Shown: piece after piece, positions 28,722 to 39,554 of the stretch
Layout: each line of letters starts with the position of its first letter
How positions within the stretch are numbered: the stretch's first letter is position 1
The notes under the pieces: model-generated
Seen by the model: the letters and a program-made list of their open reading frames with translations, nothing else
Told to the model about the DNA's origin: nothing
The model's database searches: none
Assembly (NCBI GenBank): GCA_016125285.1
Contig: WGMA01000004.1
Location: forward strand, 62,001-126,000
From: Phycisphaera sp.
GTDB lineage: Bacteria > Planctomycetota > Phycisphaerae > Phycisphaerales > Zrk34
Direction: 5' to 3'
Length of the DNA stretch: 64,000 nucleotides
Program-made: the position numbers and the translations under genes

Positions 28722-28750
28722 TTGGCCTCGGGCGAAATGACGGGTATGCT
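28722..28750 (+). promoter_or_regulatory. Promoter of array gene A
   Basis: TTGGCC (28722-28727) and TATGCT (28745-28750) are spaced by 17 bases. The expected start near 28757 leaves about 46 bases of leader. Gene C of the array has a closely similar promoter. Confidence 0.6.
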
Positions 28751-28802: not shown

Positions 28803-29489
28803 ATGAGTAGCAGTGAGGAACAGATGCATAACCTGCTCAAACCTGACGCGATCGATGCGGCCACCGACAATCCCAACGAGCTCGAGAAGATCGCCGAGGT
28901 GCAGATGGATGCTCAGGACCTCTGGCGCGACGACGATCTCAAGACGATCCTCGACGAGCAGCTGAAGATGCCGCTGGCCGACATGGAGCGGATCCTGCCC
29001 AACAGCGGCAAGAAGGCCGAGCGCTACGCCGAATCGACGCTGCCCCCGCTCGACACGATCGGCTCGGCGCTGCTGCACCAGCAGACGCCCGTCGAGCTGC
29101 TGAAGGTGATCAAGTCGTACGCGAAGGTCGCCGACCGCGACCCGTCGGAGCCGATCCCGCAGAAGGTCGCACGCGTGTTGTACTACGCGTCGATCGCTTC
29201 GGCGCTGGTGAATCAGGGAGCGCTGATCAGCTCGCTGGCGACCGACCGACTGACCGAATCGCTGGGCGCGCGGCGCCGCTCGGCATGGATCACGCCCAAG
29301 CTCTGCGAGCTGTTCGACCTCGCCACCAAGACGCTGATGAACAGCGGCAACAACCTGCTGGCCGCGCCGGCGTCCGATCAGGGCGGGTTCCAGATCGCCG
29401 AGAGCAACCCGTCGATCAGCGCCGAAGAGCTCTTCGCCGAGGTCGCCAACGACGACAAAGACGACAGCGACGCGATCCCGATGGCGTAA
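28803..29489 (+). CDS. Array paralogue A, unknown family
   Basis: This is the first of four tandem paralogues. It has 228 residues from the ATG at 28803, or 221 from the ATG at 28824, which has the better ribosome site (GAGGAAC). The conserved core spans residues about 96-180: PVELLKVIKSYAK, then ARVLYYASIASALVNQG, ISSL, a basic stretch, and WITPKLCELF. It is soluble and mainly helical by appearance, with an acidic tail NDDKDDSDAIPMA. It has its own promoter. I do not recognise the family; it is closest to copy B. Confidence 0.85.
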   Translation: MSSSEEQMHNLLKPDAIDAATDNPNELEKIAEVQMDAQDLWRDDDLKTILDEQLKMPLADMERILPNSGKKAERYAESTLPPLDTIGSALLHQQTPVELLKVIKSYAKVADRDPSEPIPQKVARVLYYASIASALVNQGALISSLATDRLTESLGARRRSAWITPKLCELFDLATKTLMNSGNNLLAAPASDQGGFQIAESNPSISAEELFAEVANDDKDDSDAIPMA

Positions 29490-29515
29490 AACGCCACCGA
29501 TTTCCCTCCGCATCG

Positions 29516-29544
29516 TTGATTCATCGCAGCCCCGCGCCATAGTA
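29516..29544 (+). promoter_or_regulatory. Promoter of array gene B
   Basis: TTGATT (29516-29521) and CATAGT (29539-29544) are spaced by 17 bases. The leader to the ATG at 29749 would be about 200 bases, with nothing else recognised in it. Confidence 0.45.
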
Positions 29545-29748
29545 TTGAACGTAACACGTCTGTCGGGGCACGAACGACACGGAACGCGACAAAACGGACT
29601 GACCAGCGGCCGCGATCGGAGTTTCGCGGCGGACATCGCGTCTGAAAACGCGTGTGGGTTGTGGTGTTGCCGGGGTGTGAGTCGGACACGTCAAATCTGT
29701 AGTGGTGCAGTGCGAACGATCATCGAGGTGGAACCGAGGAGATCCGCG

Positions 29749-30309
29749 ATGAACTTGCAAACAAGCGAGGCGGAAGCTTTGGCGATCCTATTCGGCATGC
29801 AGACCGACCGGTCGGCCGGCCAGGGCGTCGAGGAGCTCGCCGGGGCGTTGAGCGGCCAGCTGTCGATGCCGCTGTCGGACCTGACGCGCATGATGCCGTG
29901 GGTGACGCGCGACCTGCGTCGCGCGCGTCGCACGCTCAAGGCGGAGGTCGAGACGGTCGCCGACATGCTGTCGCTCGACTCACCGCCCGTCGAGCTGCTC
30001 CGCATGCTCAAGAGCTACGCGAAGCTGTGCTACCACGATCCGGCCGGGGTGATGGACAAGGAGGTCGCGCTGATGCTGTACTACGCGGCGATCACGGTCG
30101 CGCTGATCAAGCACGACGAGGTGATCACGTCGCTCAAGCGGCCGCGGCTGATCCGTTCGCTGAACAGCCGGCTGAACAAGGCGTGGATCGACCCGCGCCT
30201 CGAAGAGTTGTTCCACGACGCGTTGGCGGCGATGGGCGCCGAGGCGCAGGACGAGCCGCTCGGCAAGATCGCCGAGATCAAGTCCGGCACCGGCTCAACG
30301 GCCGCGTGA
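29749..30309 (+). CDS. Array paralogue B, unknown family
   Basis: This second tandem paralogue has 186 residues. The ATG at 29749 has a strong GAGGAG ribosome site, so longer upstream starts are rejected. The core reads PPVELLRMLKSYAK, MLYYAAITVALIKHDEVITSL, then RSLNSRLNKAWIDPRLEELF. It aligns best with copy A, including the phrase SMPLSDLTRMMP against KMPLADMERILP upstream of the core. It lacks the acidic tail of A and C. The function is unknown. Confidence 0.85.
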   Translation: MNLQTSEAEALAILFGMQTDRSAGQGVEELAGALSGQLSMPLSDLTRMMPWVTRDLRRARRTLKAEVETVADMLSLDSPPVELLRMLKSYAKLCYHDPAGVMDKEVALMLYYAAITVALIKHDEVITSLKRPRLIRSLNSRLNKAWIDPRLEELFHDALAAMGAEAQDEPLGKIAEIKSGTGSTAA

Positions 30310-30535
30310 CGGGGCAGCGGCGGGCCTCGCGTTCGTCTCGGCGCGTGGCCTGGCCTTTTGTTGAGATGTCGTTTTTGGAAGGTCGTTCGTTGGGTTGTCG
30401 TTCGCGGGTGAAGTTCCGCCATGAAACGCCGCCGTCGCCACGTCGACAGGCGTCGCCGCGCCCCCGCCATCCGCACACAGATAATACGTTCACCCAACGG
30501 TTCGCCGCGCGGGGCGTCGATCCGATGAACTGTCC

Positions 30536-30564
30536 TTGGAACCGCCTGCTCAACCGGGTATGCT
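30536..30564 (+). promoter_or_regulatory. Promoter of array gene C
   Basis: TTGGAA (30536-30541) and TATGCT (30559-30564) are spaced by exactly 17 bases. The -10 is identical to that of gene A. The leader is about 31 bases. The rest of 30310-30535 shows nothing assignable. Confidence 0.6.
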
Positions 30565-30601
30565 AAGGATAACCGGGACACAAATTGAGGGCTTCACGCA
30601 G

Positions 30602-31198
30602 ATGACTCAAGACTCCGCCACGCCTTCGCAGAATCCCAATCAAGCCTTCGACTGGAACCAGCACTCCGAGGACAACTCCTCGCGTGTGATGGGTGAGGGT
30701 CAGGACCCGGCCGAAGTCGTCTGGACGTACGGCCAGCTGCGCGACGCGTATCGGCAGATGCTGATGGCGCCGATCCAGCACATCTCGCGACGCCTGCGCG
30801 GCACCGAGCAACACGTGGCGATACTCGCGAACCAGGCCTCGCCGCCGATCAAGACGTTCGCCGACCTCGTGCGTCACTCCAAGCCGCCGCTTCACCTGCT
30901 CGACCTGGCGAAGAACTTCGCGAAGGCCGCGTTCCACACGAGCACGAGCATCCCCGCCGCGTCGTCGCTGATGCTCTACTACCTGGTGATCTGCGTGGCG
31001 TTCCTGCGTTACGACAAGAAGATCACGTCGCTGGCCGAGGAGCAGCTGCGCGAGAACATCGTCGACCGGCTGAGCGAGCCGTGGATCGACGCCGGCACGC
31101 AGCAGATCCTCACGCAGGCGCTGACGAAATGGCAATCCGTCGACGACCTGCTCGAAGCCAACAGCAGCGACGACAGCGACGTCTTTCCCGCGATGTGA
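30602..31198 (+). CDS. Array paralogue C, unknown family
   Basis: This third tandem paralogue has 198 residues. The N-terminus FDWNQHSEDN matches FNWDQHAKAH of copy D. The core reads PPLHLLDLAKNFAK, LMLYYLVICVAFLRYDKKITSL, then RLSEPWIDAGTQQIL. The Ser/Asp-rich tail SSDDSDVFPAM resembles that of copy A. C and D form one pair and A and B the other, which suggests two rounds of duplication. No enzymatic motif, metal site or membrane helix is certain, although the LYYLVICVAFL helix is hydrophobic. Confidence 0.85.
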   Translation: MTQDSATPSQNPNQAFDWNQHSEDNSSRVMGEGQDPAEVVWTYGQLRDAYRQMLMAPIQHISRRLRGTEQHVAILANQASPPIKTFADLVRHSKPPLHLLDLAKNFAKAAFHTSTSIPAASSLMLYYLVICVAFLRYDKKITSLAEEQLRENIVDRLSEPWIDAGTQQILTQALTKWQSVDDLLEANSSDDSDVFPAM

Positions 31199-31324
31199 CA
31201 CCCCGCGCCACCCGCACGCCTACGATTCCGCTACGCCCCGCACCGCACCGCCCGCCGCCCCGAACACCGCGACCCCGCGACACGCCCGCAGCCGCGACGC
31301 TCCATTGCCTGTGGAGAATTCAAA

Positions 31325-31870
31325 ATGAGTAATGAGTTCAACTGGGATCAGCACGCCAAAGCCCACCCGTCGAGCGCGATGGCCGGGAGCACGCCCGCGC
31401 CGTCGTCGTGGTCCGAGGAACAGCTCGCCGCCGAGCTCGCCGCGCTGCTCGAATCGCCGATCGGCGTGATCGCCGGGGGCGACCCGCGCGCCGAGTCACA
31501 CGTCACCGACCTCGCCGAGCGGCACGACCCGCTGCTGCGTTACGTCGTCGACATGATCCGCAACCCGCACCCGCCGGTGCAACTGCTGGAGATGGCCAAG
31601 GGCTTCGCCAAGTACAGCTACCGCAACCGCAACGAGACGCCCAAGCCCGTCTGGCTCGTCTTTTATTACCTGGTGATCGTCGTGGCGCTGCTGCGGCGGG
31701 ACAAGCGGATCACGTCGCTGAAGCATCACGCGCTGCGGCGCGGCGTGGCGTTCAGCGCCAGCGAGCCGTGGATCGATCCCGAAACGAGCGTCGTCCTGCA
31801 GGAGGGGCTGACGCTGCTCGACCACCGCATCGAGGCGACCGAGGCCAACGTCACGCCGCCGCTGCTGTGA
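31325..31870 (+). CDS. Array paralogue D, unknown family
   Basis: This last tandem paralogue has 181 residues, and GGAGA precedes the ATG at 31325. The core reads PPVQLLEMAKGFAK, LVFYYLVIVVALLRRDKRITSL, then SASEPWIDPETSVVL. The invariant pattern over all four copies is P-P/V-x-x-LL-x-x-x-K-x-[YF]-AK, [LF]YYxxIxxA[LF], I-[TS]-S-L and W-I. No clear promoter of its own was found, so it may be read with C. It converges with serS 30 bases away. Confidence 0.83.
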   Translation: MSNEFNWDQHAKAHPSSAMAGSTPAPSSWSEEQLAAELAALLESPIGVIAGGDPRAESHVTDLAERHDPLLRYVVDMIRNPHPPVQLLEMAKGFAKYSYRNRNETPKPVWLVFYYLVIVVALLRRDKRITSLKHHALRRGVAFSASEPWIDPETSVVLQEGLTLLDHRIEATEANVTPPLL

Positions 31871-35842: not shown

Positions 35843-35851
35843 TCAGCGCTT
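35834..35851. repeat. 18-base palindrome across two abutting stop codons
   Basis: AAGCGCTGATCAGCGCTT is a perfect palindrome. On each strand it encodes Lys-Arg-stop, so the convergent genes on either side end with the same two residues and with no base between their stop codons. Confidence 0.85.
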
Positions 35852-37693
35852 CCAGATGCGGCGGATGCACACGAGCATCGCCGGTTCCTCGCGCCACTCG
35901 ATCATGATGGTGTGCAGCTCGGCCTCGATCTCCTTGCCGTTGGGCAGCTGGATGCCCACACGCGAGATCTGCCCGGTGTCGGTCTCGATCTTCTGGCCGC
36001 GCGCCTGAAACTTGAGGTTCTGCCCGGCGAAGAGCATCTGCGCGGCCTCGTTGGCGAACATCAGCTCGCCCTTCTGGTTCACGATCACCAGGCCGTCGGG
36101 CATGCTCTGCACGATGTTCTTGTAGCGGAGGCGGCTGGCCTGAAGGTCCTTCATCTTGCGGCGGCGGCGCTCGCCCTGCTCGGCGCGTTCGGCGGCCAGC
36201 TCGATGAGGCGCATCTGGATCCGGTGACGCTGGATCGCGTGCAGGATCGTCCGCGAGAGCATCAGCGGGTTCATCTCGTCCTTGTTGACGAACTCCTGGG
36301 CGCCCTTCTTGAGCGCGTCGAGCATCGCGTACTGGTTCTCGATGCCGCTGAGGACGATGATCGGCGTGGTGCGGGCGTGCGTGTGCATGTCGATCAGCGT
36401 GTCGACGCCGCGCGAGTCCGGCAGCGACAGGTCGAGCAGGATCGCGTTGTACTGCCCGTTCTTCACCGCCTCGATCGCCGCGCCGAGCGACCGGACGTTG
36501 TGCACGACGAACGGGCTGTGCAGGTCGTGGTCTTCCTCGTCGAGCGACGAGTCGACCAGCGACGCGAAGCTCTCGTCGTCTTCGACCAGCAGCACGTGGA
36601 CCTCGTCGGTGCCGGACACCCGACCGGGCGCCAGCGAGCCGAGGCTCAGCTCCTCCGGCGCCTCGTCGAGGGCGACGCCCAGCGCCGCGTCGGTGTCTTC
36701 GAAGTTGTCCGACGCCCCGGCCCCGAACGCGTCGGAAGACTCGGCGGCCACCTCGTCGGCGCGAAGCTCCAGCTGGTCGATCGGCGGCGCCTCGCCGTCG
36801 AGCACGGCGCCGTTCTTGATCTCGGCCTCGATGTTGTCGATGCGGAAGATCACCTGGCGCATCGACTGCGGACGGTTCTTCGGGTCGAACGCCACGCAGT
36901 CGAGCACGAGCTGCGACAGCGACTCGGGCACGTCGGCGTTGATCTCGTTGGGCGGCTTGGGCCTGGTGGCGATCCGCATCGCGCCGCTGCCCTGGCCTTC
37001 CTTCGGGAACACCGTGGGGATGTGTTCGCCGGTCAGCGCCCAGTACAGCGTGGCGCCGAAGTTGAAGATGTCGGTCTGCGGGGTGATCGCGGCGCGGCTC
37101 ATCTGCTCGGGCGCCATGAAGTCCGGCGTGCCCTGAACGGATTCCTTGATGGTGCCGATCTCGCAAGCCTGGCCGAAGTCGATCACCTTCACGCGGTTGT
37201 CGCGCGTGATGAGGATGTTGTTGGGCTTGATGTCGGCGTGGACGCGCCCGGCCTCGTGCATCGTCTCGAGCCCGCGCGCCACGTGCCGCATGATCTCCAG
37301 CGTCTTGGCCACGTCGTCGGTGCGCAGCAGCTCGAGCGTCTCGCCGTTGACCAGCTCGAGGACGACCACGACCTCCTTGAGCCGCATCAGGTTCCGCTCG
37401 CGGATCAGCTTGTGGGCGCGGCGGAGGATCGGGTGGTCGAAGCGCGACGCCTCCTCGTATTCGGTGATGGCCTGTCGCACGAAGCGGTCGTCGGCCGAGC
37501 CCCGTCGCTCGACGTGCTTCAGCGCGAAGATGTGTCCCTTGGCGTCCTCGACGGCGTAGATGGTGGAACCGGCGCCGTGACCGAGCGCGCCCAGGACGGT
37601 GAAGCCACTGATGACGTGGCCCTTGTCCTTGGTGATCCGATGTTCGATCCCGCCATCGGACTCGTCGCCCTGAATGTCTTCGGATGTGTCCAC
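35843..37693 (-). CDS. Ser/Thr kinase-receiver-PAS protein
   Basis: This 616-residue soluble protein has a Hanks-type kinase domain (residues about 28-290) with K59, a catalytic loop HADIKPNN at 152-159 in which Ala replaces the Arg of HRD, and DFG at 172-174. An acidic linker leads to a receiver domain (about 365-490) with D421 (LLDLSLPDSRG), then a coiled coil and a PAS domain (about 522-612). Losing the RD arginine usually means no activation-loop phosphorylation control. It starts with GTG at 37693 after AGGGA. It could couple two-component and Ser/Thr signalling. The FHA/PP2C gene lies just upstream on the same strand. Confidence 0.88.
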   Translation of the reverse strand: MDTSEDIQGDESDGGIEHRITKDKGHVISGFTVLGALGHGAGSTIYAVEDAKGHIFALKHVERRGSADDRFVRQAITEYEEASRFDHPILRRAHKLIRERNLMRLKEVVVVLELVNGETLELLRTDDVAKTLEIMRHVARGLETMHEAGRVHADIKPNNILITRDNRVKVIDFGQACEIGTIKESVQGTPDFMAPEQMSRAAITPQTDIFNFGATLYWALTGEHIPTVFPKEGQGSGAMRIATRPKPPNEINADVPESLSQLVLDCVAFDPKNRPQSMRQVIFRIDNIEAEIKNGAVLDGEAPPIDQLELRADEVAAESSDAFGAGASDNFEDTDAALGVALDEAPEELSLGSLAPGRVSGTDEVHVLLVEDDESFASLVDSSLDEEDHDLHSPFVVHNVRSLGAAIEAVKNGQYNAILLDLSLPDSRGVDTLIDMHTHARTTPIIVLSGIENQYAMLDALKKGAQEFVNKDEMNPLMLSRTILHAIQRHRIQMRLIELAAERAEQGERRRRKMKDLQASRLRYKNIVQSMPDGLVIVNQKGELMFANEAAQMLFAGQNLKFQARGQKIETDTGQISRVGIQLPNGKEIEAELHTIMIEWREEPAMLVCIRRIWKR

Positions 37694-37835: not shown

Positions 37836-39554
37836 TCAGGACTGACGGCGGGCGATCAGGAAGGTGCGGTCGTCGAGGGGCACGCGGTCGTTGAGGATGC
37901 GGTCGAGCTGACGCTTGATCGCGCCGCGGATCACGTCGGTAGGCCGATCGGCCAGCGGTGTGTAGACGGCCTGGATGTTCTGCGTGAGGCGTTCGAGGCC
38001 GAGCATCTCACCCTGCGCGTCGTTCATCTCGGTCAGGCCGTCGGTGAACATCGCCAGCAGGTGGCCGGGGTCGAGCTCGTCGGTGTCGCAGCTGAACGGC
38101 AGCTTCTCGACGCCGAGGGGCAGGTTCTTGTTGTGCTGCAGGTACCGCGTGTACCCGTCCGGGCGGATGATGACCGGCGGCGGGTGTCCGGCGTTGATGC
38201 ACTCGAGCTTGCCGGTCTTGGGGTCGAGCGAGATGGCGACCATGGTGACGAACGAGCAGTCGTCGAGGTATTCGCACAGGTGCTCGTTGAGGCTGGTGAC
38301 CATGGTCGGCAGGTCCATGTTGGCGCGCTGCGACATGTGGACCATGGTGTGCAGCGAGCTGGTGACCAGCGCCGCGGGCAGGCCCTTGCCGGACACGTCG
38401 GCGACGACGAGCACGACCTTGCCGTCCGGCGCGAGCAGCGCGTCGGCGTAGTCGCCTCCGACCCAGCGGCACGGCTCGAAGCCGATCGACACGTCCACGC
38501 CCTTGATCACCGGGTCGTCCGGCACGAGCGTCGCCTGGATGTGCGACGCTCGGGCCAGGTCCTGCTCGATCGCCGCGTGCTCCTGCGCCTGGCGGCGGTT
38601 GACGAGCAACGCCTCGGCCTGCTGGTACTGCTGCGCGGCCAGCGACACCAGCGCCAGCCACTCGGGCGTGCCGTAGCGGTCGGGGAACGTGACGTAGAGC
38701 AGGTCGATGTGCTTCGCGTCGTTGGAGATCGGGCAGGCCATCGCCGCGAGGCTGTCGCCGGACAGGTCGCCCTCGCCGTTCATGTTGAACGTGCCGGTGT
38801 CGTCCATGCCGGTCGACGCCAGCACGGGCGCCTCGCTGCGCATCACCGCGGTGAGCAGGCGGCGCGAGACGTACGGCAGGCCGTCGCCCTCGCCCGGCAC
38901 CGACTGCGGCTGGCAGCGGACGAGCGGCGGGTGGTTCGGCTGATCCTTGAGCACGCGGAGGACCACCGCGGCCCGGCCGTGGAAGTCGTTGCGCACCATC
39001 AGCCGGCACAGCAGCCGCAGCCGCTCGCGCTGCTCTTCGGTCTGAGACAGCCGCCCGCCGAACTCGGTCAGCGTCGACAGGTGCATGATGTCGATCTTCG
39101 CCGCCTCTTCGGCCGGCAGCGTCGAGATCTGCGTGTGCTCGTCGTGCTCGGTGATCGGCACGTCGCTCTCGTCGGCGGACGGCGCGGCGTCTTCGGCGAC
39201 CTCCGGCTCGGTCTCGGCGATGTGGACACGCAGCGAGAAGCGGCCCATCTCGAACACGTCGCCCGAGCGGAGCACCGACTCCTGGATCGGCCGGCCGTTG
39301 ATCAGCGTGCCGTTGCGGCTGCCCAGGTCGCGGACCCACCAGCGGTCGAACGGGTCGCGGAACATCTCGGCGTGGTACCGCGAGACCGAGTGGCTGTTGA
39401 GGCGGATGGGCAGCTCGGGCGATCGCCCGATCACCACGTGCTTGCCGCTCAGCGGGACCGTCCAGACCGACCCGTCGTCGTCACGCACCTCGAGCCACGC
39501 CCGCGACTGCGGGGCCGTGGTCTCGATCGCACGCGGCTGTTGATGAGTGGACAT
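37836..39554 (-). CDS. FHA-GAF-SpoIIE/PP2C-type phosphatase
   Basis: This 572-residue cytoplasmic protein has an FHA domain at about 20-112 with the phosphothreonine-binding GR at 43-44, SRYH at 58-61 and SRNG at 79-82. A GAF-like region lies at about 170-330, and a SpoIIE/RsbU-type PPM phosphatase domain at about 360-570. The phosphatase metal-binding motifs GGDYAD, VVADVSGKG and FTDGLTE are present. It would bind phosphorylated Thr and dephosphorylate Ser/Thr, as in partner-switching control of sigma factors. It is followed 142 bases later by the kinase-REC-PAS gene, which suggests an opposing pair. Confidence 0.88.
   Translation of the reverse strand: MSTHQQPRAIETTAPQSRAWLEVRDDDGSVWTVPLSGKHVVIGRSPELPIRLNSHSVSRYHAEMFRDPFDRWWVRDLGSRNGTLINGRPIQESVLRSGDVFEMGRFSLRVHIAETEPEVAEDAAPSADESDVPITEHDEHTQISTLPAEEAAKIDIMHLSTLTEFGGRLSQTEEQRERLRLLCRLMVRNDFHGRAAVVLRVLKDQPNHPPLVRCQPQSVPGEGDGLPYVSRRLLTAVMRSEAPVLASTGMDDTGTFNMNGEGDLSGDSLAAMACPISNDAKHIDLLYVTFPDRYGTPEWLALVSLAAQQYQQAEALLVNRRQAQEHAAIEQDLARASHIQATLVPDDPVIKGVDVSIGFEPCRWVGGDYADALLAPDGKVVLVVADVSGKGLPAALVTSSLHTMVHMSQRANMDLPTMVTSLNEHLCEYLDDCSFVTMVAISLDPKTGKLECINAGHPPPVIIRPDGYTRYLQHNKNLPLGVEKLPFSCDTDELDPGHLLAMFTDGLTEMNDAQGEMLGLERLTQNIQAVYTPLADRPTDVIRGAIKRQLDRILNDRVPLDDRTFLIARRQS

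Follow-up and report, generated by a model that had tools for sequence, protein, structure and literature searches.

What do four related genes of no recognised family, set in tandem in a planctomycete genome, encode? They lie on the plus strand of a 64,000-nt stretch of Phycisphaera sp. DNA (the window), and a first-pass annotation, knowing of no function for them, had proposed specialised subunits of a system not yet described. The helical family of the four proteins was labelled F. After refinement of the start codons of gene B (to 29749) and gene C (to 30602), the features of the array were as follows.

28722..28750, plus strand: promoter-like element TTGGCC-N17-TATGCT, upstream of gene A
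28803..29489, plus strand: gene A, F-family paralogue of 228 aa, core match at 29046-29336, C-terminal tail acidic
29749..30309, plus strand: gene B, F-family paralogue of 186 aa, sister of A, core match at 29944-30234
30536..30564, plus strand: promoter-like element TTGGAA-N17-TATGCT, upstream of gene C
30602..31198, plus strand: gene C, F-family paralogue of 198 aa, nearest to the copy on contig C14, core match at 30842-31135
31325..31870, plus strand: gene D, F-family paralogue of 181 aa, of the lineage of C and the copies on contigs C14 and C45, core match at 31535-31816

The four consecutive genes and the motifs described for them were present, with intact frames and a normal codon signal. 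Third-position G+C was 0.89-0.93 in A-D versus ~0.95 in clear neighbour genes, and this signal is that of real genes. A divergent minus-strand gene flanked the array on one side and a convergent gene, read as seryl-tRNA synthetase, on the other. The intergenic gaps A-B, B-C and C-D were 260, 293 and 127 nt, so A-D do not form a tight operon. Taking the core positions as 29170, 30068, 30966 and 31653, the A-B and B-C spacings were both exactly 898 nt and the C-D spacing was 687 nt; the proteins themselves are only ~30% identical. Three exact matches to the promoter-like pattern, which was chosen after both sites had been seen, were found in the assembly, two of them at the array. The upstream regions of A and C had CGGGTATGCT in common. 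Among the upstream regions of the F genes of this genome, no 11-mer was common to any two and no 9-mer to three, and a scan for E. coli-type promoters and terminators gave no match.

A single-protein search of the 6.09-Mb assembly with D retrieved C (6e-30), B (7e-14) and A (2e-6), and also two more paralogues outside the array, on contigs C14 and C45, bringing the F genes of this genome to six. A-D each retrieved one another in single-sequence or four-row searches and matched the core profile with E values of 3e-30 to 2e-34 (A-D themselves being rows of this profile). As judged by these searches, the homology of A-D is far above chance. The core was a helical region of ~95 residues with the elements LL-x3-K-x2-AK, YY-x2-I-x2-A, I-[TS] and a late Trp. 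Residues invariant in A-D (A numbering) included P96, L99, L100, K104, A107, K108, Y127 and Y128, and further I131, A134, I142, S144, L145, W162 and I163. The residue after the conserved Ile was S or T in 97% of 63 F cores, which may be merely a helix cap. In the aligned proteins the N- and C-termini diverged, as the first-pass annotation had noted.

Its view of the family as unrecognised also held: searches of A-D against Pfam, NCBIfam, PHROGs, PADLOC and PDB sequence libraries gave no accepted match. When 13 F members were compared with the PADLOC models of anti-phage defence, the one match was to Cas6 (E 0.011, 1 of 13). B was predicted to be all-helical with ten helices (pLDDT 83.9, pTM 0.74, 13 sequences). 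A fold search of this model found no confident relative, with no Foldseek match at E ≤0.001; the best fold match was Sil1 (Z 6.0, rmsd 4.5, 102 residues). The kinship of A, C and D rests on their sequences.

The array had been explained by two rounds of duplication, giving an A/B pair and a C/D pair. In a tree whose bootstrap was not fully settled, so that the support values are rough, A and B did form a clade (98/91), but the nearest relative of C was the C14 paralogue (99/83), with D outside that pair. D, C and C14 formed a clade (100/99), to which the sigma-linked C45 copy was sister (96/81). Since C paired with C14 rather than with D, the simple two-step duplication within the array fails. 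The array copies lay on long branches.

A profile built from the array detected F in 17 of 392 Planctomycetota genomes. With a core profile built from these finds, F was detected in 69 of 397 genomes of the class, in 24 of 392 phylum-wide and in 6 of 9 genomes of the window's taxonomic family; some of the weakest of these matches may be due to chance, and copies per genome are a lower bound because the number of candidates scored in each was capped. A search for related loci with a narrower alignment gave nine named loci, and one named F match lay in a Verrucomicrobia subdivision 3 genome. By these matches, F appears widespread in Planctomycetota and present in one Verrucomicrobia genome. Four adjacent F copies were found in no other searched genome; two tandem F genes stood behind a single sigma gene in G457. 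In five loci (L037, L039, L040, L041 and L043), a subfamily carried the F core behind a different conserved N-terminal region (EYNWCALERI) and lacked a neighbouring sigma gene, and in three of them (L037, L040 and L041) the F-core gene was adjoined by a gene resembling, by eye, one for a shikimate-pathway enzyme.

In the majority of loci F was immediately preceded, on its own strand, by a sigma gene, and a kinase gene often came downstream. For 49 of 61 mapped F domains, a gene for an ECF-type sigma factor ended ≤600 nt upstream of F or was fused to it. A Ser/Thr kinase domain lay ≤700 nt downstream of F in 20 of the 57 with enough sequence, and all 20 also had the sigma gene; the chance expectation was 0.019 per F, or ~1 in total versus the 20 observed. 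Sigma and F were fused in a single reading frame in L044 and L112, and several F loci had 4-nt stop/start overlaps. The sigma-F-kinase order also occurred within the same taxonomic family, in genomes G198, G749, G751 and G752 (operons L033, L135, L136 and L138). The reading that nothing hints at a function therefore does not stand, the relatives being normally found behind an ECF-type sigma gene, often with a kinase gene next. Two variants were seen. The order was reversed in L090, with F directly ahead of sigma, and on contig C201 of G751 (L134, L138) a sigma-F-kinase operon was followed, past its kinase gene, by a second, stand-alone F gene of opposite orientation, a further orphan.

The upstream protein matched TIGR02937 in four of five cases, with E values of 3e-10 to 3e-5 but under its cut-off, and Sigma70_r2 in one, also under its cut-off. 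With PDB profiles the best match, and the sole one below 0.01, was RpoE/ECF SigE (E 0.005). The predicted structure of a relative, of moderate confidence, matched region 2 of E. coli sigmaE (Z 10.1, rmsd 2.4, 92 residues) and region 4 of sigL (Z 7.5, rmsd 2.4, 80 residues), and its fold-match list consisted almost exclusively of sigma factors. Profile matches and predicted fold together are taken to establish the gene upstream of F as one for an ECF-type sigma factor. The F-linked sigmas had a conserved acidic DAED-like region 2.2 (consensus eeAkDLtQ).

Tree distances of sigma and F were correlated (r 0.71 over 48 pairs), a value reached by 0 of 2000 shuffles. Eight genomes had two or more sigma-F pairs; there, each of the non-identical within-genome swaps among 5000 draws scored below the true pairing. 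This co-variation fits an interaction, but can also follow from copying of whole operons. F was next door to 60 of 99 sigma relatives scoring ≥150 bits, versus 0 of 28 at 140-150 bits, indicating that F belongs to one sigma subfamily.

In operons of this sigma subfamily that had no F gene, a kinase gene often came directly after sigma, and its product had an N-terminal motif, e.g. IFGLxPxQLxRLLxxG. The form FGLxPxxLxxLLxxG was common to these kinases and to many F proteins. A motif matrix was made from 17 kinases of F-less operons only, aligned by eye (20 of 29 fetched F-less loci had a readable kinase). At a 1% shuffle threshold this matrix detected the motif in 23 of 61 F proteins, with many low scores among members of the window's clade; of the kinases, 0 of 23 behind F and 0 of 30 others from the window's genome had it. 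It thus appears that the protein encoded beside sigma tends to carry the motif, and the simplest reading is that it would serve as a short sigma dock. A-D had no match above chance to the motif in its place, so they may have lost sigma binding. Four kinases behind F (L093, L097, L105 and L110) had an N-terminal H-x3-C-x2-C, like the zinc anti-sigma motif.

Gene order, sigma/F co-variation and motif distribution suggested that F is most likely a sigma-docking regulator between sigma and kinase. F, which is small, soluble and helical and as a rule encoded immediately after an ECF-type sigma gene, would bind that sigma and set its activity, most likely by holding it off RNA polymerase. On a signal, the Ser/Thr kinase encoded next would alter the effect of F on sigma, perhaps by phosphorylation. 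F would probably contact sigma through its N-terminal motif, a dock that the kinase itself would bear in operons with no F.

Control could also run in the other direction. F might be an adaptor or co-activator that docks on sigma and recruits the kinase, sigma being phosphorylated and switched on with no inhibition involved, and the array copies would then adapt other partners. The dock-like motif passes from F to the kinase in operons lacking F, which fits such a kinase-sigma bridge, and phosphorylation by a kinase is what switches on ECF43 sigma factors (PMC8999054). However, the F-linked sigmas keep the acidic region 2.2 that is missing in ECF43, so activation by phosphorylation there would not be expected; with six F proteins for one F-linked sigma in this genome, titration fits at least as well. 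We consider an adaptor role unlikely, though the strongest competitor to regulation by docking and inhibition.

The window's own genome had a single sigma gene with an adjacent F gene, on contig C45, and no kinase gene adjacent to it; its next sigma relative, on C50, had a kinase and no F. Where relatives have the kinase, the C45 sigma-F pair was followed by an integrase-like gene (L047 10006-11271). A-D had neither sigma nor kinase adjacent, and no such sigma was found anywhere on contig C67. With >40 kinase matches in the genome, a nearby kinase is no guide, and the one at 35843-37693 was rejected as the array's cognate, being on the opposite strand with unrelated genes between. This minus-strand gene combined a Ser/Thr kinase domain, a response-regulator receiver and a PAS domain, and the next gene (37836-39554) had an FHA-like sequence at its start.

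Several observations speak against the proposed mechanism: A-D have no adjacent sigma or kinase, the only F-linked sigma being on another contig, they show no motif match above chance, and other loci (L037, L039-L041 and L043) have the F core but no sigma close by. The array copies, freed from sigma, could have been exapted as helical scaffolds or signalling proteins that act with unrelated partners or with each other, outside sigma control. The existence of such sigma-less cores, the lack of a significant dock motif, the long branches, the array's own promoter-like elements and the differing termini are all compatible with this; but A-D keep all the core residues that define the sigma-linked members, and in the tree the sigma-linked C45 copy falls with C, D and C14, which makes exaptation rather improbable. 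Decay of the array into functionless leftover paralogues, for which the strong divergence and the loss of neighbouring sigma and kinase might be quoted, is hardly credible against four intact frames, a normal codon signal and conserved core residues.

From the sigma/kinase context of their relatives, A-D are probably stand-alone regulators copied out of a gene-control module: sigma-partner paralogues that multiplied as orphans and would probably act in trans. The ancestral unit would survive in this genome as sigma plus F on C45, without the adjacent kinase, and F would have been copied out to C14 and to the array. Having no recognisable dock, the array copies would probably serve in trans as additional regulators or as decoys. 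Our confidence that the A-D core belongs to the F family is much higher than that in the full mechanism, with the copies regulating sigma in trans or serving as decoys, towards which the balance tips slightly. The first-pass annotation was thus right about real paralogues with divergent termini in a family with no accepted match, and incomplete in its undescribed system of specialised subunits. It is a tentative suggestion that F represents a new class of sigma-docking regulator wiring Hanks-type kinases to planctomycete ECF sigmas, with a dock interchangeable between F and kinase, and that the array is a trans-acting, dock-free set competing for, or feeding several signals into, one sigma or kinases.

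The nearest known kind is the ECF sigma factors paired with Ser/Thr kinases, namely ECF43, 59, 61, 62, 217 and 283, with EcfP of Vibrio and EcfK of Xanthomonas (PMC8999054). These groups, several of them planctomycete, resemble the F operons in having an ECF-type sigma beside a Hanks-type kinase; the F operons differ in adding a third protein between the two or fused to sigma, and the array in having neither sigma nor kinase. A literature search found no description of this middle protein, which may have been mentioned earlier, e.g. in ECF classification work. ECF43 works through kinase phosphorylation of a non-acidic region 2.2, while how the kinase controls sigma in the other groups is an open question (PMC8999054). 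Unlike ECF43, which has no acidic DAED-like motif there, the F-linked sigmas have an acidic region 2.2, so the ECF43 phosphorylation mechanism is not expected for them. Planctomycete genomes hold dozens of Ser/Thr kinases, and several ECF sigma groups are encoded next to such kinases. A conserved third protein, a switching motif, naturally fused sigma-F proteins and the presence of several pairs in one genome would make the question of kinase-sigma control directly testable.

Soluble anti-sigma factors (ZAS/ASD class I, e.g. ChrR and RseA; NepR) are, like F, small and encoded directly behind sigma, sometimes fused to it, and the same job is proposed for F. A-D had no sequence match to them and the model of B no confident fold match, inhibition by F being putative, and the ZAS zinc motif H-x3-C-x2-C was absent from A-D on reading the sequences. 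The F members of the sigma-F-kinase operons (L033, L135, L136 and L138) have a core homologous to that of the array copies, whose C45 paralogue has an adjacent sigma. Unlike these members, the array copies stand alone, four in tandem, with no significant N-terminal motif, and the array would thus represent a regulator family multiplied without its sigma.
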